Assembly (NCBI GenBank): GCA_037903475.1 | Contig: JBAJFG010000357.1 | Coordinates: 1-64,000, forward strand | DNA from: Ancylostoma caninum | Lineage: Eukaryota > Nematoda > Chromadorea > Rhabditida > Ancylostomatidae | Length of the DNA: 64,000 bases | Direction of reading: 5' to 3' | Part shown: positions 6,171-60,109 of the stretch, piece after piece | Numbering within the stretch: position 1 is the first letter of the stretch | How the letters are laid out: every line of letters starts with the position of its first letter | Program-made: the position numbers and the translations under genes | The notes under the pieces: generated by a model | What the model was told of the DNA's origin: nothing | Databases searched by the model: none | What the model saw: the letters and a program-made list of their open reading frames with translations, nothing else

Positions 6171-6176
6171 AATAAA
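6171..6176 (+). promoter_or_regulatory. Polyadenylation signal AATAAA
   Basis: AATAAA lies 72 bp after the stop codon of the receptor exons, a normal distance for a nematode 3' untranslated region. Confidence 0.45.
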
Positions 6177-6430: not shown

Positions 6431-6720
6431 AAAGGATAAAGGATAAAGTGGTCGGCGTTAATCAATCCCGTCACGAGGGATGCGCCACGCATTCGACTTC
6501 ATCTGAGCATCGTAGAGGCGTTGAATGCGTATGTGCCCTGTACAATGATGTTGCGGGGGGCACCCGATGTACCAAGTCAGTGCTTCATCCTCCCAGATTC
6601 CTCTGGTACCAATTTACCGACCCCGGAGGGATGGAAGGCTTGGTTGGCCTCGGGCGGGATCGAACCATCGATCGTGTGCGTGCGCAGCGAGCCTCTTACC
6701 ACTGCGCCACACGCGCCCTT
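6431..6720 (-). mobile_element. tRNA-derived SINE
   Basis: Short interspersed element of 290 bp on the minus strand. The 5' head carries RNA polymerase III promoter boxes: A box TGGCGCAGTGGTAAGAGG at 6692-6709 and B box GGTTCGATCCCG at 6655-6666. The element ends in a short tandem tail, (TTTATCC)n on the minus strand, at 6431-6447. Identical flanking direct repeats GTATAAGGAT at 6421-6430 and 6721-6730 are target-site duplicates from target-primed reverse transcription. The tRNA-like part does not fold into a full acceptor stem, so it is not a functional tRNA gene. Confidence 0.85.
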
Positions 6721-6730
6721 GTATAAGGAT

Positions 6731-6765
6731 GTATACTATACTATATACTATACTATACTGTATAT
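6731..6765. repeat. TATAC-type microsatellite
   Basis: Short run of ACTAT/ATACT units just downstream of the SINE target-site duplicate. Confidence 0.7.
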
Positions 6766-7715
6766 TGAAGAATTAGCTGCCTCCATGTACATCACAAAAC
6801 GGCGCCTGCGTCCTACAATAGAACGGAGCTACTGCTCATTAAATCGACAACCACCTAGGATTAGGGCTTTGCCAACTTGCCTGACCTCACATTCAATCGA
6901 GCAGTTCTATGCAATCGCTCGTTGTTCTGCCTTGAGTACATATAATTGGTGATGAGATGTCATTAGAGAAAAGGCCCAAATACACGGCTTCGATCTACTT
7001 AGGGGATATAATTAACTCCAACATGATGAAAAGGAAAACTGAGCTACAAGAAGAAGCTACAAGGTTTCGAGAACGAACTTCGGCGACATTGGTTGAAAGG
7101 TGTTGATTGCTTTTCAAACGTTCTCAGATCCAGTAATGTTCACGTGTTTTTTTAGCATAATGTATCGAGAGAGCAATATTCCTCCGCATTCGGTAGGCTG
7201 ATCATGTCACGTGACTCTTCACAGAGGGCTCCGCACCGAAGAAAGGAAACGGGTTTGAGATTACCATCACAAACTGCATATGACAGTATATGTTTCGTTA
7301 CAGTTGTCGGACCCCCTAGTATTCGCCAATGGTTAGCAGGCATGAAAGAACCCCTGTTTTCTCCTCTAATTCATGGCTTTCCGTTAAATGTTTTGTTTTC
7401 TTCTTGCCAAGGGCTGGGATTCATGAAACAACCCCCAAACAAACTCTTTTGTTCAATCATGGTGGGCGTGTTTAGTCATGGTTGGCGTGATTTGTTATCG
7501 TAGAGCCTACGTAGTGCTAGAAGACGCAGGAAGCGAAAATATGTTTGCCTGACTGGTTTCGTCTGGTTATGCATCCATGTATCTCCGCCCAGACAAAACA
7601 TGAAACTTTAGTAGAACTCGTGATATTTAATATACCTCGTCACTCTAAGGAAGTAATGGACTAGCGCGTTAATGCGTAACAGCCATTTTTCCGTAACGTA
7701 ACGTAACGTAACGGA
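6766..7715. other. Unassigned sequence; small repeats
   Basis: No gene recognised. At about 7411-7430 there is one copy of the terminal sequence (GGGCTGGGATTCATGAAAC) of the MITE found complete at 37672-37823, without a partner that I could define. A (CGTAA)4 microsatellite lies at about 7691-7712. Confidence 0.45.
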
Positions 7716-7818
7716 TCCTCTTATATGAATCATGGTTATACAACAAAATTTCTAGAGCGCAGACACATGGGAGGACCAGCACGTGATCGCATGCGCTCGC
7801 TGCGAGGCTCAATTAAAT
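7716..7818 (+). mobile_element. 5' end fragment of a family-B Helitron
   Basis: About 103 bp matching the first bases of the family-B Helitrons at 35744 and 46666 (minus). It starts TCCTCTTATATGAATCATGG directly after A7715, as expected for a Helitron 5' terminus. The match stops where the mariner at 7821 begins and does not resume after it. Confidence 0.72.
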
Positions 7819-7820
7819 TA

Positions 7821-9086
7821 GGCTGTCCCATAAATAATGGCCGTTTTGGAGGTGCGCATTCCAAGGTGCGTTACTTAGCTCAAATTTGAGATTTTCCCTT
7901 GGAATAAAAAGAATTATCGTCAGGATTTCCTGCACATTTCACAATAGAGTGAAACCTATGTAAGGAAAAAAGCCTAAATCACAGGAGTCAACGAAGTGCG
8001 AAAGGACAATTTTCACTACACATTGATTGGCATGAATTTTCTAGCCGAAAAGTGGATCCACCGCAAGCTCGAAAAGATACCCTATTAGGCAAAGGTCTGG
8101 CCAACACAATATTACAAGGAGAGAACCAACGCCTCACTCAGTGAAATTTTTCTTCATAGGATGTGAACCTGTGTGGATTTGCCTGCCCCGCCAGTGGACA
8201 TGGACTTCTTCGGATTACCAAAACTGAGGCCTTTTCAACCGAATCTCGAAGCAATGTCCAAAATGGCAGCAGGCGAGGCACTTAGTAAATTCCGCTCGTA
8301 GCCTGGTCTAGCTACTGTTGAACACCTTGAGCAGTATTTCATCTATCAGAAAAAATCACCTTTTCCTGAGATGTCGAGGTTTGTTAAATTTATCCAGATC
8401 TCCCTCAGCGATACGAACAGAATAAAATTCCATTTTAATAAGCAATGTCTACCCTACACTAAAAGTGGCCCACTTTTCCGAAAAATTTCGCAACAGTGTT
8501 TATTAGAGAGATTAAAGTAAATGGTGTCGCAGGTGAAGCACTGGCCGGCAATGCTTCTGTTCAAAATCCACTTTGCCCATTTTTTGCCATGTTTGGCTAC
8601 CAAGAAGGCAGGGCGACCAGTGATTTAGTTGCGTCCAACCTAGCTGCTAACATTTTTACAGACTGTTTCAGAATTCTCATCTCGCCGCCAGAACTATGCT
8701 TTCATGTCTGAGAGGTTTCATGACCATCATCTGGTCAAGTTTGAGAACTCGTATCGTTCTGGAAGTGTTTCTCTGGTCATAGCTTCTGAGACAACACGAC
8801 TATCTGGCCAAATGCAAAGCTAATACCAAACCTGGTTTTTGTCCTTACTGAGCGAAAAAATAGTCTAAAAATTGGGAGAGCACAAAAACCATGTTTTGCC
8901 TCATCGTACAATTTCGTCTGCAGGAACCATAGAAAGGATAACTGAGGAAGCCTTTTTCGGGTACGGATAGAGCAGGTCTTGCTCTTCATAAAGATCCAAA
9001 GCTTGTCTATCCAGCTTCTGTACTAACGGATTTATGAACTTCCAAAAATTCATCACTAGATTGCGGCCATTTATTATGGGACAACC
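7821..9086. mobile_element. Mariner 2, degraded
   Basis: 1,266-bp element with inverted termini GGCTGTCCCATAAATAATGG (from 7821) and a close reverse complement ending at 9086, flanked by TA at 7819-7820 and 9087-9088. Length and TA target agree with Tc1/mariner elements. No transposase motif survives in any frame that I could read, so strand and subfamily are undetermined. Confidence 0.72.
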
Positions 9087-18250: not shown

Positions 18251-20008
18251 CATAATAGGAATGTTTAATTGTGATGAATTTCATTTCATTTATTTCGTCA
18301 ATGCAGTAAAGACAGATAGTGTAGAGAGAAAGGTAATGTGCGATTAATTGACAGGAAAAACTATAGAAGGAGGAATCAAAAAAGGCATTTCTGCTGACAA
18401 CGCTGTGCAGCGCGCCGTGATGGGCCCCCCAAAAGAAAATGTGAGAAACCAGCGAGCCTACGGGCGGAGGCTAGCTGGCTATAACCCTCAGAGTAACGAT
18501 TACCTGACGCGCTCCAAGGTGTTTCAGTCACCAGACCAGACAGCTGTAAATAGCATCAGCGCATACACCTTCAGGGTGTGAGAATAATTATCGCTTTTTG
18601 AGTCAGAAGAATTCAGATTTAAAACAGGCAGTCAAATTTAAAAAAGAAGTCAAATTTAAAAGGATAGGCAGCAAAGAGAGTCCTTCTGCTTATGTAACAA
18701 CATCTTAGTAGATCACTGAATAAGTTGTTGAGCCTTGAGGAAGCGGATCAGATGTAGCTGAAAGGCTGAACAGTCCCTGTACCTGAACATCGTGACATCT
18801 AAGCTATTCCATAATGTTTGAACTCTGTAAAGAAAAGAACTTCTGTAAGCACTAGTACGTGCATATTCAGGACGAACTTTGAAAGAATGACCCCCAGTTA
18901 AATTGTTAACTGGGGACATCTCAAAAAGATCAGAAATTTTAAGATACATTTCACCATTTATCAATTTATACATGAGCGTGATATCCGCTACCAGTCTACT
19001 GTCTTTCAGCGACAGAGCTCCTAACTTTTTCAATCTATCCTCGTACGAAATTCTAAGCATTCCTTTTCTGGCAAAACATCTGTAAGTGAAAGACTTTTGC
19101 ACTTTTTCAACTTCGTCTATCAAAAATTGCTGAACAGTATTCTAACATGGGTCTGACGTATGTTATGAAAAGCTTAAAAAGTATGGCAGGATTTCTCGTC
19201 CTAAAGGCCTTTAGGATAAAATTAGATCGACATCGGGCCTTGTAAACTGTGTCAGTGATGTAACTGCTAAAGTCCAGCGTGTTGCTGTAGACCAGCCCTA
19301 GATCGCGAACTTCATCTACATGAGCTAGCTCCATTCCATCTAAGAAAAAGGTTTTACTGGGATGGTTTTTCCCAAGAGCCATGGTCAGTGTCTTTTCCTT
19401 AGATCTATTAAACAAAGCGCCGTGAGGGGGCTAGAGCGGCTAGAGATACGCGGCGGCACTCATAGACACCGCAATCTTGAGGCGCAGACTGTGTGGCAAA
19501 ATGGCCGATTTCCATGGACGCAGACACGTTCGTTTCGGGACTCGCAATTACGTCACGGCTGGCTCTCCCGCATGCACGGGATGGTGATTTCATCACCTTC
19601 GCTGGCGGTCTCGCCGCATAGGAGTGAGGGAGTGTTTACGAGCTTTCAGGCTGCACAATGTACGCAGCAGGAAAACCAGCCTTCCACTGTTGTGACGCTG
19701 TCTCCACTTGTACGAAGAAACGGACGGGTGCTATGAGAGCTGCAGCGTCTCGGAAGCTTCGGGAAGGCTGGATCTACGCGGTCGCCTCATCTGGTGGATG
19801 CCATTGCCACATCCCCTGCTGAATTCTCGCGGCGATTGTGTAGTCACGACATCCGTTCGTTTCGAGAAAGCTTCTGCACTAAGAAAGAGTAAAAGCCTCT
19901 AAATAAGAATGCATGACATTGTATATCCAATCAACTATATATGGATACGGGTCCGCCGATGGAGAAACAAAGAGTAAAAGCCTCTAAATAGGAATGCATG
20001 ACATTGTA

Positions 20009-20793
20009 TTAGGGTGGTAAGAAAGTCTTGAGCCGTTTTAGACTTTTTTGTGCTTTATTTTATTACTCAGCACACAGTGGAATTTGCTCAGCAATATAAT
20101 AGCCATAGTTAGTCACTGCAGTGTCCCACCTAATGGGCAGGTCGGCGGTCCCCTTTTCCCAGGAATGGGAAGACTGGGAGCCAAAGAAATCGCTGACCTC
20201 CCTTCCAACATGGTCAACTTTGGCGGATTTTTTCTTGACTTGAAATGCCTTGAAAGAGCAAAATAAGTGGTAATCGGAAGGGGCAACGTCAGGAGAATAG
20301 GGTGAGTGAGAAACCGTAACCCAGCCCAGCTCCGCAAATTTTTCACCGGTCTCTTTAGCTATTTGGGGCCTACCCTCATCATAGCGTAGGTGTACAAGAA
20401 ACTCGTTTCGACCGTTTTTCTCAAACAGCATCCGCGGCTCTCTGGAGCTGATTGGCGTATGTGTTACCGGTGACCGTGTGTGTTTGCGGGAGCCGCTCAT
20501 AATACAATATCTCTAGCGAATTCCAGAAGTAGCAAAGGAGACAGATGTTTGGGTGGGGGTGCGATTTGGCCGATCTTCTCCTTGACGGAACCACATGGCA
20601 CGGTGCGTTTTAAAATCATAGAGGACCCCACTCCCATCTCCAATAATTAGGTATTCTAGAAACTCCTTTCGATGTGGACAGAGCAGGAAAAACCGATTTT
20701 GGCTAGGGGGACCTCTCGTGGAACTGACATCGCAATAAGCAAAAGTTCTGGAACTTTTGTAAAAATCGGCTCAAGACTTTCTTACCACCCTAA
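20009..20793 (-). mobile_element. Mariner 4, internally deleted, nested in Helitron A2
   Basis: 785-bp element with inverted termini TTAGGGTGGTAAGAAAGTCT and complement ending at 20793, flanked by TA at 20007-20008 and 20794-20795. On the minus strand 20063-20500 reads the C-terminal catalytic part of a mariner transposase: LRYDEGRPQIAK, then 34 residues later the final Asp in SPDVAPSDYHLF. The N-terminal DNA-binding half is missing, so this is a deletion derivative that needed transposase from another copy. The same family is found at 40702-45640. Confidence 0.87.
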
Positions 20794-20810
20794 TATATCC
20801 AATCAACCAT

Positions 20811-21240
20811 ATACGGATACGGGTCCACCGATGGAGAAAGGGCCCGCATGGTCCAGTGCTGTGGGGAACGCCAAGATACGGGTCCACCAATGGAGAAAAG
20901 GCCCGCCAGGGCCCAATAGTGCGGGGGACGCCGAGACACGGGTCCACCGATGGAGAAAGGGCCCGCCGTGGCCCAGTGCTGTGGGGAACACCATGACGTA
21001 GGTCCAACTATGGAGAAAACGCCCGCCAGGGCCCAGTGGTGCGGGGGACGCCGAGACACGGGTCCAGTGATGGAGAAAGGGCCCGCCGTGGCCCAATGGT
21101 GCGGCGGACGCCGAGATACGGGTCCACCGATTGAGAAAGGGCCCGCCGTGGCCCAGTGCTGTGGGGAACGCCAAGATACGGGTCCACCGATGGAGAAAAG
21201 GCCCGCCGTGGCCCAATTGTGTGGAGAACGTCAGGATACG
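20811..21240 (+). repeat. 60-bp tandem array inside Helitron A2
   Basis: About seven good copies of the same 60-bp unit as in Helitron A1, followed by progressively diverged units to about 21650. Copy number differs threefold from A1 while unit sequence is almost the same. Confidence 0.9.
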
Positions 21241-23977
21241 GGTTCATTTCAGTCCGATAGTGTTGAGAATGCCAGGATGCGAACCCGCCCCTGGAGAACG
21301 TGTCCGGCTTGCGCTAACTGTGAGGAAGGCGCCGGAATGCGGGCGGTCTGATGGAGGAAGGGCCGTCGTTGCTCAGTAGTATGGATAACACCAGGATACG
21401 GGTCCGCCAATATAGGATTGGTCCGCTGTGACTCAGTGAAGTGGAGAATACCAGGATGCGGTTCAGGCCTAATAGTGAAGATGGCGCCACAATACGGGTC
21501 CAACGATGGAGGAAAGTCCGCTGCAGCCCAGTAGTGCGGAAAACACTCGGATACGATTTCGCTTTATCCAGTAGTGTGGGGAACGGCAGGATACAGTTCC
21601 GCCGATGGAGAACGCGCCTGCGTTGGCCCGATAGTGAGGAATACGCACGAATACGCCATACGATGGAGAACAAACTTCTCATTCTCATACTCAACTCATA
21701 AGAAGGACTTCATGTTTGGCCCCATTGGAAGATTGATTCTGCTTCTTTATCAATTTTCTAGAGATTTGGCAAGTGTGAAGCGTTAGCACATGTCCCAAGT
21801 GGCTGCCCCACCCCACTTTCTAGCGTCCCGAAGGGGCGCTAGTATGTTTAAATTCCACTTTTTGGACCATACGACTACAGAATCGATGGCCACTTGCAAA
21901 AGCTCGGCATCATTTACGGTGTAAATTTTGCAGTCGTCCGCGTAAATCGAGCAGAAAGCGCTAGGAGGTAGCACTTTAGGGAGATCGTTAATGTACATAA
22001 GAAATAGTAAAGGTCCTAGGCATGTCCCCTGAGGAACACCACTAGTAGTGGGGTAGCTGCAGGATTTGGCCCTGTTAATAATGACGGTTTGACTTCTGCA
22101 GCTGAGAAACGCGCGAAGAAAACGATGCAAGCACCCAGTTATACCAAGAGCTCGAGCTTTCTCTAGAAGTAGAGGTATGGAAACGGAGTCAAAAGCCTTC
22201 CGATAATCCAGAAATCAGATTGAGATGAAATTCCCCTTATCTAACTCCCTCTGCCAAACCGGAACCGTTGAAAGGAGGGCTGATGTTGAGGATCGTTTCG
22301 ATAAAAATCCATGCTGGAGTTCAGAAAGCACTCCACTCTCAGTAAGAAATTTGGTTAAGCAACGGCAAATGATCCGCTCCATAACCTTGCTTGTGGAGCA
22401 TGTCAAGCAAATTGGGCGATAGTTTTCAACTCTATTTTTTGCACCCTTTTTATGGATCGGTCGAACTACTCCTAACCTCCATATGCTTGGAGTTTCACCA
22501 AGTAGCAAAAATTTGTTGAAAAACAGTGTAAGAGGAGTAACCAAACCTAGAGCGGCTCTTTTAAGGAAGGAATATGGAATCTCATCTGGAGAGGTAGAAT
22601 TTCTATCCGGAAGCTCGCGCAATATACCGTAGACGGTCTGGCTAGATATATCAATCCAATCTAGCGAGTGCTCATTCTGTCTACCTACGCCGGCAGTCAT
22701 ATCCTCGGCAGGCTTGTAAACACTTCTGAAGTAATCGGCGAAAAGATTGACTTTTTCATCATCACCATCCACAATGGTGTCTTCGTTAATTGAAGGTGGG
22801 ATGCCGCATTGTAATTTTAATTTACTGTTACAATGCTGAAAGATCCTCTTCGGATTGCGCGATTTAGCAATATTTTCTTCCGTACATGCAGCTAGACTAG
22901 CAAGTTTGGCTTTAAGTTTACGAGCGTATTCGTTGTACAAAGAGCTTCCGTATTTATGAATATTTCGGTACAAATAGTTCACCTTAACTCTGAGATGAAG
23001 CAGATTCCTAGGCAACTTTGCGTCGACAGTCTTAGGACGGAGAAGTGGAACGTATTTTTCAATAAGGTCATGGCAGATTGAAACAAAGTTGCTGTAACTT
23101 TCATCAGCGGTCTTCGAGGAGTTGATGATACTAACCCAGTCAATGCGTGTTAATACGGAAACAATTTGGTCATACTTGGCTTTAGTGAAATTTCGAGACG
23201 CGATGGGGAATTCAGGAGATTTTTTACACTTGCCATCGATGTAGAAGGACACGCAATTATGGTCAGAGGTACTGAACGGAGGCAGAATTTCGATATTCCT
23301 AATAGAAAGTGGGTTGGTGACTAATATTATTTCAATTGTGTTGTGACCATGCGTGGGTTTGTCAACGATTTCAGTGAGATTGTTTTCTCTAGCAAATCGC
23401 AGGAATCTGTTTGAGCTTGTTGTAGAAATGTTTTCGCGGTGTGCCATCTTATTCCAATCAATCGTTGGGAAATTAAAATCTCCTAAAAGGATAGCGCTAG
23501 AAGGCCAGTCCGCAAGAAGTTCGTCGACGAAATCTATGAAAGTTATAAAAGAAGGGGCGCTGCAAGAAGGACTCCTATATCTGCAATCATGAGAAAGTTG
23601 TCGCTTTCTGTATTGACTTCAACCACAACAGCTTGGCAAAATTCGGAAAAGTTCTTAACAGCTACCAAAGTATGGCAGGTTAGGTTGTGAATTAAGGCAG
23701 CAACTCCGCCACCAGGACGGTTACCATCCCTATCGCATCGATAAACGGTGTGAATATTATTGAAGCTTAACGACGCATCATGTATTAAGTGCTGCTTACA
23801 CCAGGTTTTGGTAACAAATACACATGCAGGATTTTGGGACAAGATTAAATTCAAATCGGGTAATTTATCTACTATAGAGCGAGCGTCAAAAAGAAGGAAT
23901 CGATCTTTTATATCAAAACATGATGTAAAGTTAGGGGTACCGCACACGGAGCCATGTGTGGTATCCCGGCACTCATC

Positions 23978-25130: not shown

Positions 25131-25442
25131 TGCTATCTTGGACTAATCAGTTATTTCGAACAGATTCTGCTAGTTTAGCTCATCCTTAACACTTTGCATC
25201 TTTTTGAAACTTCCTTGGGAACTACTGATGAAAGGGTCATGTACCCAAGTGGGCAATTGAGTCACACAACCGGTCTAGTTACTAGCCCCGAAACCGGAAA
25301 GCGTGAAAATCTCTCATACATAACTCTTCTTCTCCACTATTCGGACTTGTCTTATCAGTAGGATGGTATTCTAGTGCCTTAGAATCTCACTGAGGTAATG
25401 GGGTGCTGACAAGATTCTTATAACTTCTACTCTATAATATAA
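25131..25442. other. Unassigned spacer
   Basis: About 310 bp between the LINE 5' end and mariner 5; nothing recognised. Confidence 0.5.
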
Positions 25443-26738
25443 GGTATGTGAAAAAGTTTCCGCCCTTTTTAAAGCGAAATTGAGTGTTTTTTTTTTCAAA
25501 ATAGAAAAGAAACAGATAGATCAATCGAAGTAGTGGCCATCGTTAGCTATAACCTTTGCCCATCTTTGTGGGAAGAGAAGGATGCCGCGGCGGTAGAAGG
25601 CCTCGTCCTTCGACTCGATCCATTCCCTCACCCATTTTCCGACGTCTCCGAAAGACTGGAAGTGCTGCTCGGAAAGCCCATGAGCCATCGACCGAAACAA
25701 ATAGTAGTCTGACGGAGCACAGTCTGGTGAATAAGCCGCATGTGGTAGCACATCCCAGCGAAGTGCTTCAAGCGTCTCCTTCACTGCTTTTGTAACATGT
25801 GGATGAGCATTGTCATACAGCAAAATGACTTTGTGCTGCCTTGTCTCGTGTTCTGGCCGTTTCTGGTGCAATGCTCTGCTCAAACGAATCGTTTGGTCTT
25901 TATAGAGATCGCCCGTGATCGTCTGGCCTGGTTTAAGCAGATCATGATAGATGACTCCCTTCTGGTCCCACCAGATACACAGCATTGCCTTCTTCCCATG
26001 GATATTGCGCTTTGGCGTCGATTGTGATGGTTGGCCACGGTCGCAAATGGCTTTCCGGCTCTTCGGATTATCGAAATAGATCCACTCTTCGTCTTCAGTA
26101 ACGATACGATGCAGAAATCCCTTCCTTTTTTGTTTGTCAAGCAACATTTCACAGATGGTTTTTCTTCTTTCCATGTCGCGTTCTGTCAAGTCGTATGGTA
26201 CTCATCTGCCTTCCTTATAAACCTTTCCCATGGCTTTGAGACGCTTGGAAATGTTGAATCTATCAACATTTAGAGAGTTCATTTAGAGAGGCAATCTCTT
26301 CTTGTGTTTGGCGTGGATATTCATCAATTAATGATTGAAGTTCTTTGTCTTCAAAAACTTTTGGCCTTCCACTGCGTTGCTTGTCTCCAACATCGAAATC
26401 ACCACTATTAAAGCGTCGGAACCATTCTTTGCATGTTGTTTCTGATGGAGCATGGTCCCCATAAGCTTCCATGAGCATTCGGCAAGATTCGGCAGCAGTT
26501 TTCTTCAAATTGAAGCAGAAGAGAAGTGCTTTGCGCAAATGACGCTTACTTGGCTTAAATATCGGCATGATTATCGCCATAAAACACAATAATGTTGATA
26601 TAAATCGGAACAAATATGTACTAAATATTATTGACAGATATCAAAGCAACAAAACGAAGTAGGATTTACAGAGTATTTGCAAGGATAGCTAACGATATAA
26701 CCACTCATCGCTAGAGGGCGGAAACTTTTTCACATACC
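25443..26738 (-). mobile_element. Mariner 5, near-complete
   Basis: 1,296-bp element with perfect inverted termini of at least 22 bp, starting GGTATGTGAAAAAGTTTCCG, and the complement ending at 26738. TA follows the right end; the left flank reads TAA, so one duplicate may have changed by a base. The transposase pseudogene fills the minus strand. Of all DNA transposons here this copy has the best preserved coding region. Confidence 0.92.
25521..26568 (-). pseudogene. Mariner transposase, nearly intact
   Basis: From the ATG at 26568 to the stop at 25521, about 349 codons, the normal family length. The N-terminal part has two helix-turn-helix-type segments (LRKALLFCFNLKKTAAES; TCKEWFRRFNSGDFDVGD). 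The catalytic core has VTEDEEWIYFDN with the first Asp, LLYDNAHPHVTK with the second, and the third 34 residues on in SPDCAPSDYYLF: a complete D34D triad. Only two lesions were noticed: a frame change near 26265-26290 in the linker between the DNA-binding and catalytic parts, and a TGA near 26207 where related proteins have Trp. It is probably recently inactivated. Confidence 0.9.
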
Positions 26739-27265
26739 TAATCTGAGGGGAATACATCATAATGAAGGTGTTATGACTGTGCTTGTAATACTACAGATGC
26801 CGGTATTTGGCAAAAAATTTTCGAAACTTACGGAAATTTTTGAAATCAAATTTTCCATACTTGCGGAATTTTTTGAATTCGCATTTTTAAGGAGGAAGAA
26901 TGCGTCATTATAAACTGTTCCGACATTTTCTGAATTCAGTTGTGCAAATGATCAAACTTTCTAAATATTTCCTAACTTTCTCCCATTACTTTTGAGATTT
27001 ACAGAGAATGCGGGTGCATTGATGACGGACAGATGTGCCGGGGTCCAGTGCCCGTAGTAATCCCCCCCTCAGCCCAGCTGAGCTGGGATGACCCAGTCGA
27101 CTGCCAAAAAACTCGTCCAAAGGCAGCCCAGCTGCCTTCCCATGTTGTAGAATAGGCAGCCGAGGGGTAAGCCGAGCGTGATCGGATGCCTATTTCCCAT
27201 CCCAGCTTAGCTGAGGCCCAGCCCAGCTCGGCTTCCGGCTCGGCTGCCAAAGAAAGGAAGAAATA

Positions 27266-27546
27266 GTGGGTCAGCCGAGTAGGCACGCGTACAGTCTGTT
27301 CCCTGAAACGTACACTGCCATCCTCGCCCCGATTGGACAAAGCGGCGCGCGCACGTTTAATCGGGGCGCGAAGCTGCAACAGCCGATCAGCCTCTCCCCG
27401 CGCCCTGATCGATTCCTTCGCGCCCCAATCGAACAAAGCGCACGCGCCGCTTTGTTCGATTGGGGCGAGGGTGGCAGTGTACGTTTCAGGGAACAGACTG
27501 TAAGTTGCTCGTGAGCAACTTACGTGACTCTCCTCGGCTGACCCAC
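27266..27546. mobile_element. Palindromic MITE with TA target
   Basis: 281-bp element, termini GTGGGTCAGCCGAG and complement, flanked by TA at 27264-27265 and 27547-27548. Both arms contain ACAGTCTGTTCCCTGAAACG and its complement, so most of the element folds back on itself. No coding capacity. An additional inner palindrome TAAGTTGCTCGTGAGCAACTTA lies at about 27501. Confidence 0.75.
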
Positions 27547-35743: not shown

Positions 35744-37485
35744 TCCTCTTATATAAATCATGGTAGTGCAACAAAATTTTCTAGAGCGCAGACGTAGGGG
35801 GACTAGCACGTGATTGCATGCGCGCTCCGTGAGACTCAGTTATAGACTGTGCCTCGCGAGGATGCGAAGCTGATGGGGCATTCGGCCGATGTTTCGTCAT
35901 AGGTGCATAGACGTAGTGGAAGTCGGGTGCATTCGGGATTTCGCGGTGGGACCACCGTCTAGCAGTCTCGAGCCCTCCAGGCGAGACAATGTTTACAACG
36001 ATTTGACGATGCATAGCAGCAATGTACGGAGCAGAGTCGCCCCTCGGCGGAGCTTTGTTGTTGATTTCACTCAGCTTTGGAACAGTGGACGATAACCGCT
36101 TCGAGAAGAAGTGTGCATGGATGTATCGAAGGATTCACTCGGTGTCCTCACTTGGGATATGATCCTTGCGCACCTCTCTTTGAGGTCCTTTGGGGATTAT
36201 GCAGACTGAGGATCCGTCTGTTTTTAAAAAATACAATCAAATATACAGGATGAAGAACGCGTCACCATAAGCTGTTGTGACATTCTCTGAAACCATTTGT
36301 GCAACTTGTGCAGTTGATCAAACTTTCTAAATATTTCCTAGCTTTGTTCCATCACTTTCGAGATTTGCAAAGAATGCGGCTGAAGTGATGACGGACAGAT
36401 GAGCCGGGGCCCCGTAGTCCAGAAAAACATCATGATAAGTGTCCACCAGTGGCGGACGCAGGGGGGGGGGGGGCGGGAAGGGGGCGCCCTCCCCCTAGAA
36501 TGGGTCGCCAAATTTTCGAAATTACTTTATAATACAAACAAAAATCTTGTATTACATTATTATTATGTAGTTTGCTTTTACTTGTTTATTTTTAATATTA
36601 TTTCTAATATAATTTTTATTAATTATTTATTATTATAATTAATATTTTTATTAGTTTTATTCTCCGTCTGGATCCCCAAAACGGTGGAGACCGCACTTTC
36701 TTTCCCACGTCCCTCCCCCCTCCCGCCCACTTTCTGCGTCCGCCACTGGTGTCCACCGATCGAGAAAGAGTCCGCCATGGTCCAATAGTATGAAGACGGC
36801 AAGATACGGGTCCATCGATGGAGAAAGAATTCGCAGTGGCCCAGGAGTGGGGGAAACGCCAGGATACGGGTCCATCGATGAAGATTGGGTCTGCAGAAGC
36901 CCATTAACGGGGAAATGCCAGGCGACGAGTCCACGGATGGGGATTGGGTCTGCGCTGGCCCAGTAGTGGGAATAACGCGAGGATACAGATCCACAAATGG
37001 AGGATGGGTCTGAACTGGCCCAATAATGGGATAAGCAGCAGGATACGGGTGTAGTGATGGAGAATGGGACCGCCGTGGCCCAATAGTGGGGAAAACGCCA
37101 AGATGCACGTCTGCCGGTGGAGTAGGGGCACACTACGCGCTCATTCGTGTCTCAGCAGACCACCGCTTTTTCCTCTCTGTTGGCTGTTCATGTGACAAAA
37201 AGACTAGGTAGTATCATTGTATCGGAAATCAGCGTTACATGTAAATGCGTGATTAGGAGTTTGCAGGCAAGGCTAGGATGGCGAGAAGACTCGAAGCCCG
37301 ACGTTGGCGAGGCGGCCAGACCCGTAGAGTATATGCAACTCATAGGGAAAATTTCGTATTTGAGTTCAGCTAATGATTAGTTTTCTATTTTGCTGATTTT
37401 CTAAGCATTTCACACGTGTGGAGCTTTTGCACATACCTCAAGTGGCTGCCCCACCCCACTTTCTAGCGTCCCGAAGGGGCGCTAG
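35744..37485 (+). mobile_element. Non-autonomous Helitron, family B copy 2 (complete)
   Basis: 1,742 bp from TCCTCTTATATAAATCATGG after A35743 to CTAG before T37486. The 3' hairpin (37463-37485) is identical to family A, but the 5' 500 bp are unrelated to family A. The interior has diverged 60-bp-type units between about 36757 and 37120. It carries a hAT-type MITE (36447-36748). It begins only about 10 bp after the decayed 3' end of copy 1, so two copies lie head to tail. Confidence 0.87.
36447..36748. mobile_element. hAT-type MITE
   Basis: 302-bp element with inverted termini CAGTGGCGGACGCAG and complement, flanked by perfect 8-bp target duplicates GTGTCCAC at 36439-36446 and 36749-36756. 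An 8-bp duplicate with CAGTG-type ends is the hAT superfamily signature. The interior has a G-run after the left terminus and an AT-rich centre with no coding capacity. Confidence 0.9.
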
Positions 37486-40944: not shown

Positions 40945-43790
40945 CTAGGTGTCCAGGTACTCGCCAACTGCCTTTTTGTATAGAGAAAATTTCACTGGCA
41001 CACTTTTGTTTTTGGTGAACTTCAAATATTCAGAAAGCGCTCTATGAGTAAAGAAATTCTGACGTATTATTGTTTTTGCCGCAGATATATGTGGCTTTAA
41101 TGTTCCACCTCTTGTGATAGATTTACGCAAAACGAAAAAATCAGAACTTTTTAATTCACAGAGATTATGTAGGATCTTATACATCATGAGAAGAACGTTC
41201 CGTCTTCTCCTTTTCTGTAATGACTTAAGCGGTACAATTTGTTCCTACTGTTAGGCGGTAGCATTTTTTGATATGAGAAGTTTGAGAGACCTACAGTTCT
41301 AATCATAAGCTTTCTTGTGAAATTGTTTTGAATTTTTTCAATCATGTTAATTAAGCATTTCTTGTAAGGATTGAGTATAGTGGTTCCGTACTCCATTATT
41401 GGTCTAACATATGTTTTGTATGGATTAATCATCACCGTTGTATTTTTGCTTCGGAGGGCTTTGAAAAGATAGTGGATCTGTCTTGTTGCTTTTGCCCTGA
41501 TTTTTCTGACGTAATTGCCAAAGGAGAGGTTCTCATCTATGAGGTAGTCAAGGTCAGTGACTTCTGATGCTTCAGAGACAGGCTCTAAACAAAGGTTGTA
41601 TGTTAGTTTGGGGTTGTTCCGACCTACACGTAGTACTTTGGTTTTTTGTTTCGACAATGGAAGTTTCCATTCATTGGACCAAGATGCAACAGCATCTATA
41701 GCATTTTGTAGGCGAATACTGTCACTTGCTGTGACTACGGGGCTGTATATTTTCAAATCATCAGCAAATGCGATACATCCTATATCTCTTTCTGTGATAA
41801 TATCTGGAAGTTCGCAGGTGTATACATATATTGAATAGAATCGGGGATAACACTACTACTCCACTAGAAATCCGTCGTATGGAGGAAAGAGTATCATTAA
41901 TGCAAACTTGAAACGTCCTTTCTGTTAGGAAGCATTTTAGCCAAGATATAATACGTTCATGTATGCCTATTTTCATTAGTTTCAGAAGAAGAAGTTCATA
42001 TGGAACTTTGTCGAATGCTTTGGCAAAGTCAAAATAAACAACATCTAGCGGTTTTTTATCATCGAGAGTAGAAGTCCACTGATTAAGTGCGGTTAGCATC
42101 GCTGTTTCAGTGGATTTGCCTTTTTGAAATCCATGCTGAGAAGGAGAAATAATTTTCTGTGTCTCGAGGTGGTTGACTATCTTTTCTTTCAAAACTTTCT
42201 CAAATAGTCTCGAGAAAATGGATGTTATACTTATGGGTCTATAGTTGTCTACAAGATCGAAGAGAGGCTTCTTTGGTATTGGTGTGACGAGTGCATGCTT
42301 CCACTTTACGGGTATTTCACATCTCATGAAGCTCAATTTGAAGATAAATTCGAGAGGACCCACAATTGCTCCTCGAATCGAACGAATAAAAAGAAAGGGA
42401 ATATCATCGGGGGTCCTTGAATACGATGTTGGCCATCTGGATATGAGAGCGTATAATTTGTCACGGTGGAACCAAACCGAATCTTGCATAGATGGCTTCT
42501 GCTCAAAATTTATACATGGAGTTTCTTCACAATTGCTATCATCATAGACTTTTTCAAATGAGTCGGCAAAAAGCTCTACTTTCTCACGATTATTTCTGAT
42601 GAGATTTCCGTTGTTGTCCTTTAGAGCACCAATCGATTCTCTGCGAGATAGTCTGGAGCGGAGAAGTTTGTAGAAAGCGGGCTTATTTTTTGACTCAATG
42701 ATTTTCTTCTCAATGGAGCAGTTATATTTATATAGCTTCCGATGGAATTTGTTATCAAAAACGCGAAACTTTTCCCAAAGTTCAGGCGTGTTGTCTTTGT
42801 TACCCTGCTCCCAGGCTCTAGAACGGACGCGATACAGGGAGTTCAGGTATGAGGGTAGGTTTGGTAGACTTGGGTGAATCTTTTCTACAGGGACAAATAG
42901 TTCGGTGGAATGTTTGAGAATGCTGGGAAACATCTCATATTTCTCGTTAACGGTGTCCACTGTGTTAAAGGAACCATACCAGTCCACTGAATACAAATAA
43001 CTTCGAATCTCATCGTAGTCAGCGCTCTTGTAGTTTCGTCTTAATACGAAAGAAGGAGTTTCATGTGAGATTGCAAGTTCGAAGGATACAGTTGAATGAT
43101 AACTGCTACCAATGGGAGGCTCAATACTCAAGGAGTTCACAAGATTTGCCTGATTACATAGTACTAAATCTAATATATTCGAGAGATGGGTGGGACTATT
43201 AACAGTTTGGTAAAAATTGTGGTCATTGCAAAAACTGATGAATGAATTTGAATTCTTGGATTTCGCACTAGGCGTATCACCCCATTGAATATCAGGGAAG
43301 TTAAAGTCGCCCATGAGTAAGCATGGTGTTGTACAGGTTGAAATATCACTGAGTACTCTGAGCAAGTATTCCGTCATTTTTGACGAGCAGATGGGTGTCC
43401 TGTATAGTGCTAATACACGTAGACCAGAACCATTTGAGATGATGTCAACAACGAGTATCTCGTATGAATCAGGCATACTTTCGTTGTAGATAAGAACGGG
43501 ATATAAGGAGTGTTTGATAAGAAGCATAACACTACCTCCACTTTTTCCCACGCGATTTTCCTCACATCTAATCGGTTCACATTTAGTGAGCGATTCACCC
43601 AAAAGCGGTGCTAGTTCCATTGACGATGACAGCCAGGTTTCGTTTATGTTAATAATGTCATGATTAAATCGTTTCATGAGGTAGACTAGAGCCATATAGT
43701 TCTTTGGAAGGGAACGTATGTTTGAGAGAAGACATTTGATGCGAGTACATAGAGTCCGAGGAGTTATTAGAGGTTTTCCGGCCCACTTTG
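40945..43790 (-). pseudogene. ORF2 (endonuclease and reverse transcriptase) of LINE 2
   Basis: The frame overlaps the end of ORF1 and enters the endonuclease at CLLSNIRSLPKN before the first ATG (43695). Endonuclease motifs: ININETWLSSSMELAP with the catalytic Glu, LLMGDFNFPDIQWGD with the Asp. The RT follows: VTPIPKKPLFDLVDNYRPIS, SQHGFQKGKSTETAML, YFDFAKAFDKVP, then SGVVVLSPILFNI, where four residues usual in the SGVPQGS block appear missing. A frame change near 41835 leads into FADDLKIY with the catalytic Asp pair (41758-41769), and another near 41187 into the C-terminal part. The protein nicks target DNA and copies the element RNA. The large open part (645 codons) suggests recent decay. 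Confidence 0.87.
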
Positions 43791-44555
43791 GCGAGTAAGT
43801 GACAATCTGCTACCAACATAATTTGAAGTTGCATCAGAAGGTGCATTATTTCGCGAAGATAGTGTCGATGAGTCATTAGAATTTATGCGGGGAAGAGTCC
43901 TTTCATAACGTATTCGCTCCCTCTCTGCTTTAGACAGTGAGGGGCGAATAAATATACCTCTAACGTAAAAAGATTTCAGCCAATGGGCTCGTCTCAGCAT
44001 TTGCACTTGGAAAAAGGATGCGGGTAGAACTATCTTCACTAATCTAGGTCTATTTGACATGGGTTTCCTCATGCGATAGACTGACAATGGGTTATACTCA
44101 ATAGACAGGTGATCTAAAATCTCATGTACAGTCATATGATCCTCATGAGCTCTCGCAGTAGAGTTTTCCGCCTTACTTTCTGCCATACCAGAAATGACAA
44201 TACTACGATTTCGTTTGATTTCCTCATAGGTAGTTTTTGTCTCTACAGATTTGTCGTTACTAGAAGGATCATTGGAAACAATGGCGTTTTTGAGGCTAAT
44301 GATTTCACTCCTGAATGAAGAGATTTCCGCAACGAGTTTACGATTAAAATCGTTCGCCGCATTCAAAAGAGCGCTCAGCCTGTCATGACAACCAGGCAGA
44401 TAGACAATGACACTTTTAAGGTGGGGTTGTACGGTGTCATCAAGCAGTAACAAGTTGATTGCCCGTTTGAAATTCTTCTTGTCGTCTTCATTCTCTTCAA
44501 GATTAGAGTGAATTTGGTCCGGAGTTCCATGAACGATAGCCATTGAAGATTCCAT
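43767..44555 (-). CDS. ORF1 protein of LINE 2
   Basis: Intact 262-residue frame from the ATG at 44555 to the stop at 43767. A central segment (LLNAANDFNRKLVAEISSFR and following) has heptad-like spacing compatible with a coiled coil. The second half resembles the RRM-like fold of LINE ORF1 proteins: RNRSIVISGMAESKAENS, VYRMRKPMSNRPRLVKIVLP, LRRAHWLKSFYVRGIFIRPS. The C-terminus is Ser/Asn-rich. No zinc knuckles were seen. Expected role: RNA chaperone coating the element transcript. The fold assignment is inference from the pattern. Confidence 0.72.
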   Translation of the reverse strand: MESSMAIVHGTPDQIHSNLEENEDDKKNFKRAINLLLLDDTVQPHLKSVIVYLPGCHDRLSALLNAANDFNRKLVAEISSFRSEIISLKNAIVSNDPSSNDKSVETKTTYEEIKRNRSIVISGMAESKAENSTARAHEDHMTVHEILDHLSIEYNPLSVYRMRKPMSNRPRLVKIVLPASFFQVQMLRRAHWLKSFYVRGIFIRPSLSKAERERIRYERTLPRINSNDSSTLSSRNNAPSDATSNYVGSRLSLTRQSGPENL

Positions 44556-51561: not shown

Positions 51562-52829
51562 TTAGGTGCGTGCAAAAGTTCCGGGGCAGTTTCACTTTGT
51601 TTTTTGAAACGCCATAAGTCGGTTCAGAGTAAACATTTTTGATCAAATCAAATAGCATTGGCACCAATGCAGTGTTGCCAACGCAGCACATAAAGATTTT
51701 TCCAGAAGCCTTGAATTTGACAGGTTTACACTTGAAAAAGCGGCACAGATCGTTTTTGAGTAGGGTCTGTTCATTAAAAGTTTCACAGCGGATGAGACGA
51801 TTCAGAAGCTTGAAAGAGGGACATTTTGTTGGGGACAGGTCCAGAGATTATAAGGAACGCAAGAGAATTTCAAAGCCCGAGTGGTCCATTTTTTACACGG
51901 TTGACACTGTAGCATGCCGATATCCGTATTCCCGCAGCAGGAGCTGCCCACATATGCTTGCCTGTGTTGGCCTCATATTTGAGAGTTTTCCCATGATTAC
52001 TCTCGACAAAAGAGCGTATTAATCAACAATAATGGTACATCTGTTTCGAAAAAAATCATTGCGGATTACTCAAATTGCTGACAAGAAAAGGACAAAAAAA
52101 AATCCAAAAGAGTTGCGGTGGTTTTGTCTCCTTTTTGGGTAGGTCGATGATATCTAGATCCTGAAAGGACCCCTTCCTGTTAACGTACATGACCCACATT
52201 GCATTACTAATAAGAATCCGCCCAAGAAACAGCTTGCTAGAAAATTAGTAGATCAAATATATGCAGTCGTCCAGGTGGCAACACTGGTGTTCTTCGCTCA
52301 GCTCACACGAAATCCGTTCACTCATCTTTCTCTTCTTACCGATTTTCTTCAAGTGACGGAACATATTTTGATAATTACCTCATAATGTTCTGCACACCTT
52401 GTACTGGGTCTGCTTCAACGTGGCCCTTTCAATCGCCTCTTTGAAGATCAAGTTACTGAGTAGCTCGTAGTGCATTTTCCATACTCTCCCTTCCGTCTAG
52501 ATTTCACAACAGCCCACGAGTCCCTGGCATTTTGGAGAAGATACCCTGCATGAACGAAAGGTTGACACTATGGATTGCTCCCGAATCGCCCGAATTTGAA
52601 TTCATGAAGCAAAATTCCACAAATTCGCTGACTGTGCCTAACATTAGTATTAGGGCTAAAATACGGCAACGCTGTGATCTAGATCCGAGCCAAAAGTGCC
52701 GTAGGTAGAAGAGGTTGCAGGTTACCTGTACCTATAATAAAGGCTGCAAGATATGGAAACCGTAAGGAGCAAAACAACATCAAACGATGAAATACCACCA
52801 ACTGCCCCGGAACTTTTGCACGCACCTAA
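51562..52829 (+). mobile_element. Mariner 7, degraded
   Basis: 1,268-bp element with 30-bp inverted termini beginning TTAGGTGCGTGCAAAAGTTC, flanked by TA at 51560-51561 and 52830-52831. One plus-strand frame near 52590 reads LLPNRPNLNS, resembling the final catalytic block of maT-type transposases (xxNSPDLNP) with Asp replaced by Asn. No other transposase part is readable. A fragment of the same right end lies at about 38795. Confidence 0.85.
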
Positions 52830-55459: not shown

Positions 55460-56285
55460 TGAATCCAGCGGTCTTATTTACATGTTTAACGCGCGGTCTG
55501 TTTGCAATAAACTCCCGGAATTGCAACTCCTTTTTGCATCTAACCCGCTGATGGTATTTATTACCGAAACTTGGTGTAAACCAGATATTATTCACGACTC
55601 CACCATATCGCAAGGTTTCGATTACGATACCTATATATGTGACAGGGTTAACGGCATCGCAGGAGGTGGTACACTAGCATTAGTAAGTAAAGATGTTCGT
55701 CACCAACTCCTTTCATCTATCAGCATAACTCCATGCTGTCAATGCCTGGCACTAAACGTTGCTCACTTGCGAAATACTATTCGAGTCTTTCTCGCCTATT
55801 GAAGTCCCTCATGTGAACCAGTTGCTTTTAAAAAGGCCCTCGAGTTCATGAACGAATTCACTTCTGATAGCTCCGATATTTTGCTCCTCGGCGATTTCAG
55901 CTTTCCTTCTATCATTTGGTCTAACAACATCTCCACAAACAACGGCTGCTTTTCACCTAAAGATTTTCTGCATTTTTGTGACGAACATTCGCTGCAGCAA
56001 CTAGTGTCAGCTCCTACACATGGTCGGAATATCTTGGATCTCATACTTACCAATAACTGTGAAATCATACATGAAATTAAAGTCCTTCCCCCTTTCTCTA
56101 CGTTTGATCACACCCACATTTCATTTGAACTCAACGCCTCCTATACACATCCAACATAATCAGCCTACTATTTGGACTTCCGCAAGAAAACTACTCTGCC
56201 ATTATTAAAGATCTCAAGATCTCTTGAAAATCAACTGGCGTGATCTCCTTTTTTCCGCTGCTACTGCTGATGAGTGCTATAACAT
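55460..56285 (+). pseudogene. Endonuclease domain of CR1-like LINE 3
   Basis: Apurinic-type endonuclease motifs in order: MFNARSVCNKLPELQLLF, FITETWCKPDIIHDS with the catalytic Glu, GGGTLALVSKDV, LLLGDFSFPSIIWSN with the Asp, APTHGRNILDLILTNN, and PPFSTFDHTHISF, where the usual Ser of SDH is Phe. A TGA at about 55801 and a frame change after 56160 disrupt it. The end reads TADECYNIYL and continues, after removal of the foldback, at 58773 as HFCNEIISHHVPITY. This aligns with SYSNFVSICHDLIEKYVPLL in LINE 1. Confidence 0.83.
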
Positions 56286-56292
56286 CTACCTA

Positions 56293-58772
56293 CAATACTG
56301 CTCATGGGATCGCGAAAACCGACGGTCGCTCCGCGGAGTCACCGTCGCGCACCGTCGCTTCGCTATAACGTGCTTAGAACTGCCCCAATCAAAGCGTTTT
56401 GGTCACCAATCGATTTGTCTCGTCGAGATCTTTCGAATGACCTACCGAATATGGGGGTATGCCTTCTGCTTACTGGTTTTCGCCAAGTAATCGATATATC
56501 GATCGATGCAGTGTAATGGATCGAATCTGTAGTAGCAGAAATACGCGCGAAGAGTCGGAACTGAAGCTCGATTTCGATGATTTTCTCTAAACAAGGGCAA
56601 AAACTTCCAAAATCACGCACGAAGGCGCAGAAGTGGGCAAACTCTACATGATTTCAAAGACATCCGATTTTCGACGAGGTTGCTGATGGAGCGCACCGTT
56701 TCATCGCAACTAGGTAACCTGAATGGGGAATGATAGCAGGTTGGGAATAACTCTTTATGCACTAGAAGTCCTGCGAGTGGCTTTGCCGCTGGTCTGCTAA
56801 TCTCGATGTTACTCTCGCTCAAAGTGCGAACTTTTGCTGTCCCCTGTGAAAACCTCGATGTTGAGGAAGCTACAACTCCTCAATGGGATGAGCTACCGAC
56901 CTATCTAAGGAAAGGTGATCAAGAACAATGAGTGCTCTTCCAGAAATTGTAGTTGCGATGGTTCCAGCCGCCCTCGCTTGTCACCTAGGACCGCGTTAAT
57001 TTTGCTAGAAATTAAGGCGCATTCCTGTATCTGTCTCTAACAGCCCTGGAAGAGCGGTTGGACAATGGGAGCCTATGCACTCTTGAAGAACTCGTAAGTG
57101 AGCACATTCTATGTGAAAAGGGTAAGTTTTCCAGAGATTCGATTTTCCAGCACTATGTATTAACTCATGCAAAGCTTCCCTTTGGAAGCGAGGGTCCCAC
57201 AACGACGCGTTTGTGGTGGGTTCCAGGTTCAATGCCCACCCGCTGAATCCGCTGAATTTGCAAAATGCTAGAAAAGATGAAAAAACTCCGTATGAGGGGT
57301 TTCTAAAGGCGGTTGCGGTTTTTTTTCATTGATTTTCGCATGGCGCAGTGGCTAAGCGTCTTGTCTGGCGAGCAACAGGTGGAGGGTTCGATGCCCGAGT
57401 TTGACAAAGTTTTGCAAAATGTTCCTTTATGAAGATTGATGTGCCGAACACTTTCATAACGGAACTCCGGACCCTTCTTCATTCAAAAAAAAAACTATCC
57501 AAAACAGTCATCTATGGAACACAACGAGTTAGCATATCATGTATCGTTCTCATCCAGCGTTCGCCAGACAAGACGCTTAGCCACTGCGCCATGCGAAAAT
57601 CAATACATTCAGGTCATTTAAACATTGACTTAACGTGAAGGAACATTTTGCAAAACTTTGTCAAACTCGGGCATCGAACCCTCCACCTGTTGCTCGCCAG
57701 ACAAGACGCTTAGCCACTGCGCCATGCGAAAATCAATGAAGAAAAACCGCAACCGCCTTTAGAAACCCCTCATACGGAGTTTTTTCATCTTTTCTAGCAT
57801 TTTGCAAATTCAGCGGATTCAGCGGGTGGGCATTGAACCTGGGACCCACCACAAACGCATCGTTGTGGGACCCTCGCTTCCAAAGGGAAGCTTTGCATGA
57901 GTTAATACATAGTGCTGGAAAATCGGATCTCTGGAAAACTTACCCTTTTCACATAGAATGTGCTCACTTACGAGTTCTTCAAGAGTGCATAGGCTCCCAT
58001 TGTCCAACCGCTCTTCCAGGGCTGTTAGAGACAGATACAGGAATGCGCCTTAATTTCTAGCAAAATTAACGCGGTCCTAGGTGACAAGCGAGGGCGGCTG
58101 GAACCATCGCAACTACAATTTCTGGAAGAGCACTCATTGTTCTTGATCACCTTTCCTTAGATAGGTCGGTAGCTCATCCCATTGAGGAGTTGTAGCTTCC
58201 TCAACATCGAGGTTTTCACAGGGGACAGCAAAAGTTCGCACTTTGAGCGAGAGTAACATCGAGATTAGCAGACCAGCGGCAAAGCCACTTGCAGGACTTC
58301 TAGTGCATAAAGAGTTATTCCCAACCTGCTATCATTCCCCATTCAGGTTACCTAGTTGCGATGAAACGGTGCGCTCCATCAGCAACCTCGTCGAAAATCG
58401 GATGTCTTTGAAATCATGTAGAGTTTGCCCACTTCTGCGCCTTCGTGCGTGATTTTGGAAGTTTTTGCCCTTGTTTAGAGAAAATCATCGAAATCGAGCT
58501 TCAGTTCCGACTCTTCGCGCGTATTTCTGCTACTACAGATTCGATCCATTACACTGCATCGATCGATATATCGATTACTTGGCGAAAACCAGTAAGCAGA
58601 AGGCACACCCCCATATTCGGTAGGTCATTCGAAAGATCTCGACGAGACAAATCGATTGGTGACCAAAACGCTTTGATTGGAGCAGTTCTAAGCACGTTAT
58701 AGCGAAGCGACGGTGCGCGACGGTGACTCCGTGGAGCGACCGTCGGTTTTCGCGATCCCATGAGCAGTATTG
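56293..58772. mobile_element. 2.5-kb palindromic foldback element
   Basis: Two arms of about 1,135 bp, 56293-57427 and 57638-58772, are inverted copies of each other with over 99 percent identity around a 210-bp spacer. Ends are CAATACTGCTCATGGGATCG and complement, flanked by TA (56291-56292 and 58773-58774). The empty site, reconstructed by removal, restores the LINE 3 reading. There is no transposase. Long-arm, TA-target foldbacks are known in worms (Tc4/Tc6-type). Each arm contains a tRNA-like promoter pair, and the spacer holds a third partial copy of that region (57556-57605). Confidence 0.9.
57341..57396 (+). repeat. tRNA-like A and B boxes in the left foldback arm
   Basis: A box TGGCGCAGTGGCTAAG (57341-57356) and B box GGGTTCGATGCCC (57384-57396) with tRNA-like spacing. 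A mirror copy is at 57669-57724 on the minus strand. Acceptor-stem pairing is absent, so this is a SINE or tRNA relic carried by the foldback. Confidence 0.6.
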
Positions 58773-58890
58773 TACACTTTTGTAACGAAATTATATCACA
58801 TCATGTCCCTATCACATATCAACAAGGCAAAAGTACCCCATCACAATTCGCAAAAAAGTTCGCTTCCTTGACCGAGTATTTCAGACGTTC

Positions 58891-60109
58891 CGTCCAGCTT
58901 TTCAGCCGTTGGATGGTTCGTGGCGCCTACTAGGAGATCATGAGTGCTTCCCACCTCCAGAGAGCTGAACAACTTCAGACATCAGGTGGCATGCTGCTGG
59001 TCCCAGCAGCCCGACCAATTTCGTCGCCATTGAAGCGCTGCTGCTGAGTTAGCGAGGATCATGAGTCAGGCGAACAACAGACTGGTTCAATTCTGCGTCT
59101 GATACAATCCTACGTGTATTTTCGCATATTGCGCTGCTTGTACGCTGGGTATGAGCTCTACGTACTGCATAGCGTCGAGTTCCGGCAAAACCTCGAACTT
59201 GAAGACTTTCACAGGTGCCAGCTTTTTATTTCTTAACGTTTCCTTTCTATTCATTTCCTGTCAAATCACCCTTCTCACCGGCGCTTGAGCTAGCCTATTT
59301 CGTCTACCACCTACCCTGTTTGGCACTCGTTATGACTCCGAGCTCATCACTTGTCCCTAAAATCTGACCTAATCCATCCAACAATGGTCTCTCCGGACTG
59401 CAACGTTTCGAAATTGTCCAACACCTGCCGCTGTTAGAGCAGGGGTGTTGATCGGAGTTTGAGCTGTGGAATGAACGATGTGCTGTATTGCGAAACTGCC
59501 CTCTCATTAGTCACGTTTCCGCTTTGCGACATTATCATGGACGGGCGCATATACAACACAGTGAAAGAAGATGAGAATGCACGACAATATTTTCATTCAG
59601 ATAGAATCACCATTGCTCTTTTTTTAATATGTCCAACAGCGACGGACATGATAGGCGGAGAAACCAGTATCAACAAGACACATAGGCCATCCCACACATG
59701 TAATGAGCGTGATGTCTGTGGCTTATATAAAGGAACAGCAACATGGTACGTCGTCTTCACAATCTCTCGTATCTTATATTTAAACGGATATTTGATTTTT
59801 CAGTGTTCCTATAACGTTAATAAATTGGTCGAAGCTACCTCCAATATCACTTAGTACTTGGTTTTTTTATAGTTTTGTTCCGAAATATTCCGAATTCTCA
59901 ATACGAGACTATGCAATGTATTTTTGCTGCCCACAAATTTTTCAAAGATGAAAACGACATTATTTAGGCTATATGAATTGTTTTTCAGTTTGAGGGTGTA
60001 TCCATAATATACTAACACTCTAAAAAACGTAGCACAATTCCGCGCCATTTCACCCCCCCCCCCCGATTAGTAAAGTGTTGAGGAAGTTTTCTTGTGTGAT
60101 TTCAGAAGG
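58891..60109. other. Unassigned sequence
   Basis: No recognised gene. A plus-strand frame at about 59539-59755 with a GTACGT donor and a TTTTTCAG acceptor at about 59804 could be part of a small cysteine-containing gene (HRPSHTCNERDVCGLYKG), but there is no family match I can name. A C-run at 60054-60064 precedes the next gene. Confidence 0.4.

Follow-up and report, generated by a model that had tools for sequence, protein, structure and literature searches.

Dispersed palindromic Foldback-type transposons with Tc1-type remnants in Ancylostoma caninum and evidence for homogenization of their arms within copies

In Caenorhabditis elegans, the repeat names PALTA and PALTTTAAA denote a palindromic structure, Dreyfus and Emmons reportedly described a palindromic, transposon-related repeat of this nematode in 1991, and Tc5 duplicates a TNA target upon insertion. 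The available text on C. elegans palindromic repeats uses both names (PMC6873666) and links such repeats to DNA transposons (PMC6873666, PMC3212995), and that on Tc4 presents a fold-back DNA transposon which likewise duplicates TNA, at CTNAG (PMC11071193, PMC6829131). Tm1 of Meloidogyne, a Mutator/Foldback element, has composite inverted repeats and 9-bp target duplications according to the accessible part of its description (PMC3169594). In Drosophila, Galileo is presented, in the portions of its literature at hand, as a Foldback-like member of the P superfamily with long inverted arms and 7-bp target duplications (PMC2775673, PMC4168063); Tetris from Drosophila virilis, again according to the available text, has terminal inverted repeats that reach 1,735 bp and include tandem repeats of about 220 bp, duplicates 8–10 bp of target, lacks a coding copy that could be found, and is assigned to Mutator by its authors (PMC4079207). 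For GalileoN, high identity of the two arms within a copy, as opposed to divergence between copies, has already been published (PMC2775673, Table 2, in the part available). Ancylostoma caninum itself harbors the mariner bandit, which duplicates TA and for which the accessible text gives a length of 1,285 bp, inverted repeats of 32 bp, and a transposase of 342 aa, without long arms (PMC2041818). Long-armed Foldback elements without a coding copy, and arm identity within copies, are already known.

The palindrome analyzed here lies within a window of 64,000 nucleotides (bases 1–64000 of contig C253) of the hookworm genome, which was searched as 638 contigs comprising 347,937,819 bases. It is a member of a family that is scattered through the genome and united by common ends; several members carry a remnant of a Tc1-type transposase gene between the arms together with tandem 133-bp units. 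Very probably this is a nonautonomous Foldback-type family of Tc1/mariner, which we infer to be moved in trans and whose arms exchange sequence. The build is that of Foldback elements (arms of 1135 in 2480 bp, tandem units of 133 bp elsewhere in the family, and a middle and arms that vary in length), and a MITE, i.e., a short noncoding element of less than about 600 bp, is a poor description of the window copy with its 2480 bp; only two pairs of ends, spanning 629 and 638 bp, come near that size. Long inverted arms are shared with Galileo, arms with tandem repeats and the lack of a known coding copy with Tetris, a fold-back structure in a nematode with Tc4 and Tm1, and both TA duplication and host with bandit; the likeness to the C. 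elegans palindromic repeats is one of description. In contrast to the 8–10-bp duplications of Mutator-type Foldback elements, to the 9 bp of Tm1, and to the 7 bp of Galileo, TA was found in 16/16 elements with facing ends, and the window copy is flanked by CTA on the left and TAC on the right, unlike the TNA duplication of Tc4. Furthermore, its tandem units measure 133 bp rather than the about 220 bp of Tetris, its long arms set it apart from bandit, and its remnant is Tc1-type whereas Galileo belongs to the P superfamily; a tRNA-like array goes unmentioned in the available text on Galileo (PMC2775673, PMC4168063). No paper on this family appeared among the best-ranked papers (at most 20 per search) of the open literature. 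The combination of a tRNA-like tandem array with TA/Tc1-type ancestry looks new, and the number of copies showing sister arms is a further distinction.

An earlier note on this stretch had placed a near-perfect 2.5-kb palindrome at 56293–58772, with arms more than 99% identical across 1.1 kb, and these coordinates proved exact: the element proper comprises 2480 bp, and its two 1135-bp arms differ at eight positions (0.7% divergence) and are separated by a 210-nt spacer (Table 1). With TA included, the inverted repeat was called as 56291–57427 versus 57638–58774 (1137 nt per arm, 99% complementary). The arm mismatches are transitions in 8/8 cases. Coding capacity of the window copy was considered and rejected: the longest stop-free frame of the left arm plus spacer encodes 106 aa, a length matched in 49/200 shuffles, and Pfam returned nothing for nine read-through translations (three at E 0.001, six at E 0.1). 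Protein database searches with two element frames as queries yielded zero candidates. Pattern scans gave no match for a 22-mer in a collection of genome contigs or for a 23-mer in viral contigs; a 17-mer pattern match in viral contig L001 was taken as chance after its surroundings had been read.

Table 1. Features of the palindrome and its insertion site (positions in the window).
Feature	Position	Strand	Remark
Decayed LINE left of insertion (stretch read, not full extent)	55500..56292	+	LINE reading
Left TA target-site duplicate	56291..56292	.	precedes 56293
Left arm, 1135 bp	56293..57427	+	8 mismatches vs right arm
Terminal 16 bp CAATACTGCTCATGGG, left end	56293..56308	+	62 exact genome copies
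Subterminal near-palindrome	56320..56347	.	two overlapping 17-nt arms, 88% complementary
tRNA-like unit, left arm	57328..57400	+	A box 57341, B box 57385
Spacer part downstream of transposase stop codon	57428..57536	-	97–99% alike in 7 other copies
Last transposase codons, TLDENDT + stop	57537..57560	-	matches family copies
Cut-off 133-bp tRNA-like unit	57561..57637	-	44 bp identical to arm units
Right arm, 1135 bp	57638..58772	-	inverted-repeat match
tRNA-like unit, right arm	57665..57737	-	A box 57724, B box 57680
Terminal 16 bp, right end	58757..58772	-	match to left terminus
Right TA target-site duplicate	58773..58774	.	follows 58772
LINE reading resumed right of insertion, end approximate	58775..58926	+	LINE reading

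The terminal 16 bp (CAATACTGCTCATGGG) matched the genome exactly at 62 sites (28 forward and 34 reverse), as opposed to none for the reversed control, so the absence of a second copy of the terminus, which the earlier note had named as a possible refutation, is not what is found. Among these matches are 16 facing pairs of exact ends (window copy included) spanning 629–4626 bp. The other 15 pairs were fetched with 500-bp flanks, which had played no part in their selection, and all of them (15/15), as well as the window copy, are bordered by TA on both sides. Their aligned pieces are mostly ∼91–98% identical to the window copy. Two of them, L016 and L023, agree at 99.4% of positions throughout their 1904/1906 bp and have an internal deletion in common, while their 500-bp flanks are without similarity and neither contains a transposase match. 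The common deletion at unrelated sites shows that a shortened element, itself without detectable transposase, has transposed. Unpaired exact ends numbered 30; among the 20 that were fetched, 17 are adjacent to TA (the exceptions being L028, L030, and L041). Seven of the 20 (L026, L031, L032, L035, L036, L041, and L042) have the exact terminus but an interior only 67–79% alike, as would suit older or sister subfamilies; within the 8 kb fetched, no TA-flanked second terminus (≤4 mismatches) was found for them, and tblastn gave no transposase match. A genome search with the outer 200 bp produced 41 matches from the 40 scored of 337 first-look candidates; given this fraction, the family is probably larger. 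Further TA elements inside the window have termini unlike those of the palindrome and are hence not its partners. The window also holds a mariner-type copy (25439–26742; 28-bp inverted ends, 96%; 226-aa Transposase_1 frame), two TA-flanked elements with perfect inverted ends of 30 and 27 bp starting TTAGG (51562–52829 and 20009–20793, respectively; Pfam was blank for six read-through frames of the former), and a TA-flanked 209-bp hairpin element (27292–27500) with ends CAGTCTGTTCCC. A 288-aa frame with Mos1-type HTH and Transposase_1 was observed at 965–1831 (minus), where surrounding inverted ends were not found. Three places (2247–3650, 20758–21464, and 36728–37101) have 60-bp minisatellite units in common; two of them lie in similar stretches (around 1775–3998 and 19403–21747).

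The earlier note had also proposed a search for a transposase-bearing relative; remnants of such a gene were found in 7/15 fetched complete copies (L010, L011, L014, L015, L019, L021, and L022), and nothing beyond remnants. Of 149 genome matches to DDE_3, two lie inside family members (L010 on C5, E = 1e-10; L015 on C80, E = 5.9e-11), and these two frames are 93% identical to each other. The best PDB match of the L010 frame is the Sleeping Beauty transposase (5.2e-10). TA duplication and the DDE_3 remnants, which were recovered without the first catalytic residue, support a place for the family within Tc1/mariner. On the minus strand, positions 1–77 of the window spacer are the cut-off 133-bp unit, and positions 75–210 comprise TLDENDT-stop followed by sequence from downstream of the gene. 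This 3′ part matches 7/7 copies compared (97–99% alike); the match covers the last codons in L010, L014, L015, L019, L021, and L022, and starts after them in L011. A cut unit joined to the tail of the transposase gene means that the window copy most likely arose by deletion of that gene, the junction most likely being located at 57560/57561. Neither this gene tail in the spacer nor the tRNA-like units had been recognized in the earlier note.

An 84-aa DDE fragment was also compared with the genome, and 150 of 1279 candidates were scored. Among these, only L010 and L015 retain the whole fragment at ≥93%, L019 and L014 retain its tail, and matches outside the family with at least 50% identity contain no open frame longer than 168 aa, many of them being interrupted by stops. 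Neither an intact transposase of the palindrome's clade nor a full-length autonomous copy was found among the 150 scored. Stop-free frames of 340–380 aa at ∼38–49% identity belong to other Tc1/mariner-type genes, one of which could act in trans. In the mechanism we propose, the common ancestor of the family would have carried a transposase gene, which the window copy would have lost by deletion, and transposase supplied in trans would bind the ends of the element (the subterminal near-palindrome being a putative binding site), cut it out, and paste it elsewhere. Gene conversion from arm to arm, helped by pairing of the inverted arms, would then keep each copy nearly symmetrical.

How the arms relate to each other was examined for the 12 of 24 copies in which both could be aligned along the outer 430 bp (in one case from position 59 onward; the rest were dropped). 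In the maximum-likelihood tree, left and right arms were sisters in 12/12 copies, 10 of these groupings being starred; the tree was otherwise star-like and its bootstrap not settled. Arm sisters were likewise obtained in 5/5 copies (2 starred) with the inner segment (431–1000). With the outer 280 bp they were obtained in 10/11 (5 starred, about half having lower support), L022 being the exception. Both arms of one copy have changes that are absent from all other copies compared: 46 private states were common to the two arms of a copy, whereas random pairing of arms gave 2.1 on average and never more than 14. Plain distances were weaker evidence, partly because some arms are near-ancestral and hence close to all others. 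Over 430 bp, divergence within the copy was below the mean divergence to other copies in 12/12 cases; relative to the nearest other arm, it was lower in 7/12; in 3 copies the two values coincided at the printed precision, and in L019 and L027 the within-copy value was the higher one. The corresponding values for the outer 150 bp were 13/16 (mean) and 2/16 (nearest arm), and for the inner segment 5/5 and 2/5. Within-copy divergence ranged between 0.7 and 2.8%, and some short-armed copies had lower arm identity (90–91% in L017 and L024, about 93% in L012, and 95% in L018). Mere inheritance of palindromes predicts that arms of the same side group together, which is not seen in the trees, and thus indicates that arms have been homogenized within copies.

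Two further palindromes were observed among the distant relatives. L047 (C505:185800–195500) contains, at 1505–8211, a different palindrome with 2961-bp arms that are 99.9% identical, TA at both ends, and pieces of a Tc1-type transposase within both arms. L046 (C26:2043200–2046400) is a 91% palindrome over nearly the whole fetched stretch (14–3161), with transposase pieces on both sides. L045 and L046 showed no similarity to the arm plus spacer of the window copy. The palindromes in L047 and L046, which were picked for inverted-looking matches, hint at recurrent palindrome formation in the Tc1-type clade but, being just two, are too few to establish it.

Instead of exchange in place, symmetry may be remade at transposition or repair by copying of one arm, a possible but clearly less likely explanation. 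Sister arms in every copy are what such repeated palindromization would also produce, and the palindromes on C505, a different element, and on C26, with their transposase pieces in both halves, are in line with it. However, the asymmetric spacer, present in 11/24 copies examined, favors inheritance as palindromes, and arm divergence of 0.7–2.8% is equally consistent with continuing conversion. Much less probable is that the likeness of the arms merely reflects youth of the palindrome. The divergence of just 0.7% in the window copy would fit, as would the outer arms of L016 and L023, which group with the other copy rather than with their own partner (0.000 versus 0.007), as expected for a recent move but not for a sister pair. 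Without exchange, however, an arm should resemble the same-side arms of other copies more than its own partner, in conflict with sister arms in 12/12 copies and with private changes on both arms. Arm-to-arm exchange within copies is therefore favored, and of the earlier alternatives "young or kept homogeneous" the second is the one that the evidence favors: as a consequence of homogenization, arm identity cannot date the insertion.

The window copy was inserted, with duplication of TA, into a pre-existing LINE. When 2482 bp (element plus one TA) were excised, a single LINE frame was obtained across the site, whereas after excision of 2480, 2483, or 2484 bp one side or the other fell out of the LINE reading. 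Over 35 residues spanning the junction, the restored reading gave a gapless alignment with a further LINE in the window (22215–23618; E = 8e-08), and it matched the more distant LINE protein P0002 weakly (E = 0.015). The best match of a separate LINE frame of the window (41761–43809) comes from Ancylostoma ceylanicum; it is a hypothetical protein, 84% identical across 76% of the query. The restored frame at the insertion, TA on both sides of 16/16 facing-end elements, and the deletion-sharing pair at unrelated sites support the view, already taken in the earlier note, that true transposition and not an inversion in assembly is responsible. Although long inverted repeats are classically troublesome for assembly, it is hardly conceivable that such an artifact of assembly or library, be it an inverted chimera or a collapsed repeat, has produced the palindrome, in view of its asymmetric spacer, the eight differences between its arms, the TA duplicates with restored LINE frame, and the 15 other facing pairs with TA flanks of their own.

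Both arms of the window copy contain an A and a B box matching 18/18 consensus positions at a spacing of 44, whereas no such pair occurred in 3.84 Mb of simulated control (both strands). The internal unit, taken by itself, has A and B boxes at tRNA spacing, as tRNA-derived SINEs do. Scanning of 25 copies and partial copies revealed at least one unit in 20 and at least one perfect A+B pair in 13. In other members the 133-bp units are arrayed in tandem (4.9 copies in L034, 97% matches; 3.8 copies in L019, 96%), which gives the family a classic Foldback build. Neither Rfam nor ARAGORN at default settings reported anything within the window, and ARAGORN at a lowered threshold was uninformative (370 window matches), so that the tRNA-like assignment rests on the box scan and the simulated controls. 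That the element is a retrotransposed array of tRNA-derived SINEs and not a DNA transposon, a reading for which the perfect boxes in both arms and another A/B-box sequence at 6709 might speak, can practically be dismissed in view of the inverted termini with their TA duplicates and of the remnants of transposase. The A/B-box sequence at 6709 belongs to a SINE-like stretch at 6420–6720 (minus; A box 6709, B box 6666) which ends with repeated TTTATCC. RNA of 57325–57790 is predicted to fold with −247.9 kcal/mol (z = −22.6 versus shuffles), as expected of a palindrome. Pol III terminates at T runs; it may meet early stops where four T occur in a row (57410, plus; 57655, minus), and ten T at 57494 in the spacer would be a stop for a putative minus-strand Pol III transcript. 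Judged from these motifs, transcription by Pol III may be driven by the A and B boxes and yield double-stranded RNA when the transcripts fold back on themselves.

Extending these observations, Tc1-type elements of this clade might repeatedly become giant palindromes, some with transposase inside both arms, the arms serving as template for each other and an axis-near Pol III array possibly being a source of hairpin double-stranded RNA; we regard this wider scenario as rather doubtful. The family itself shows, repeatedly and copy by copy, that the two arms of a dispersed palindromic transposon evolve in concert, and palindromes also occur among other Tc1-type elements of this genome. The family also carries a warning, as high arm identity is unusable for dating such insertions. 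Every insertion is in effect a separate natural experiment on gene conversion between arms, and the Pol III signals that are intact in some arms could supply hairpin RNA to the small-RNA system.
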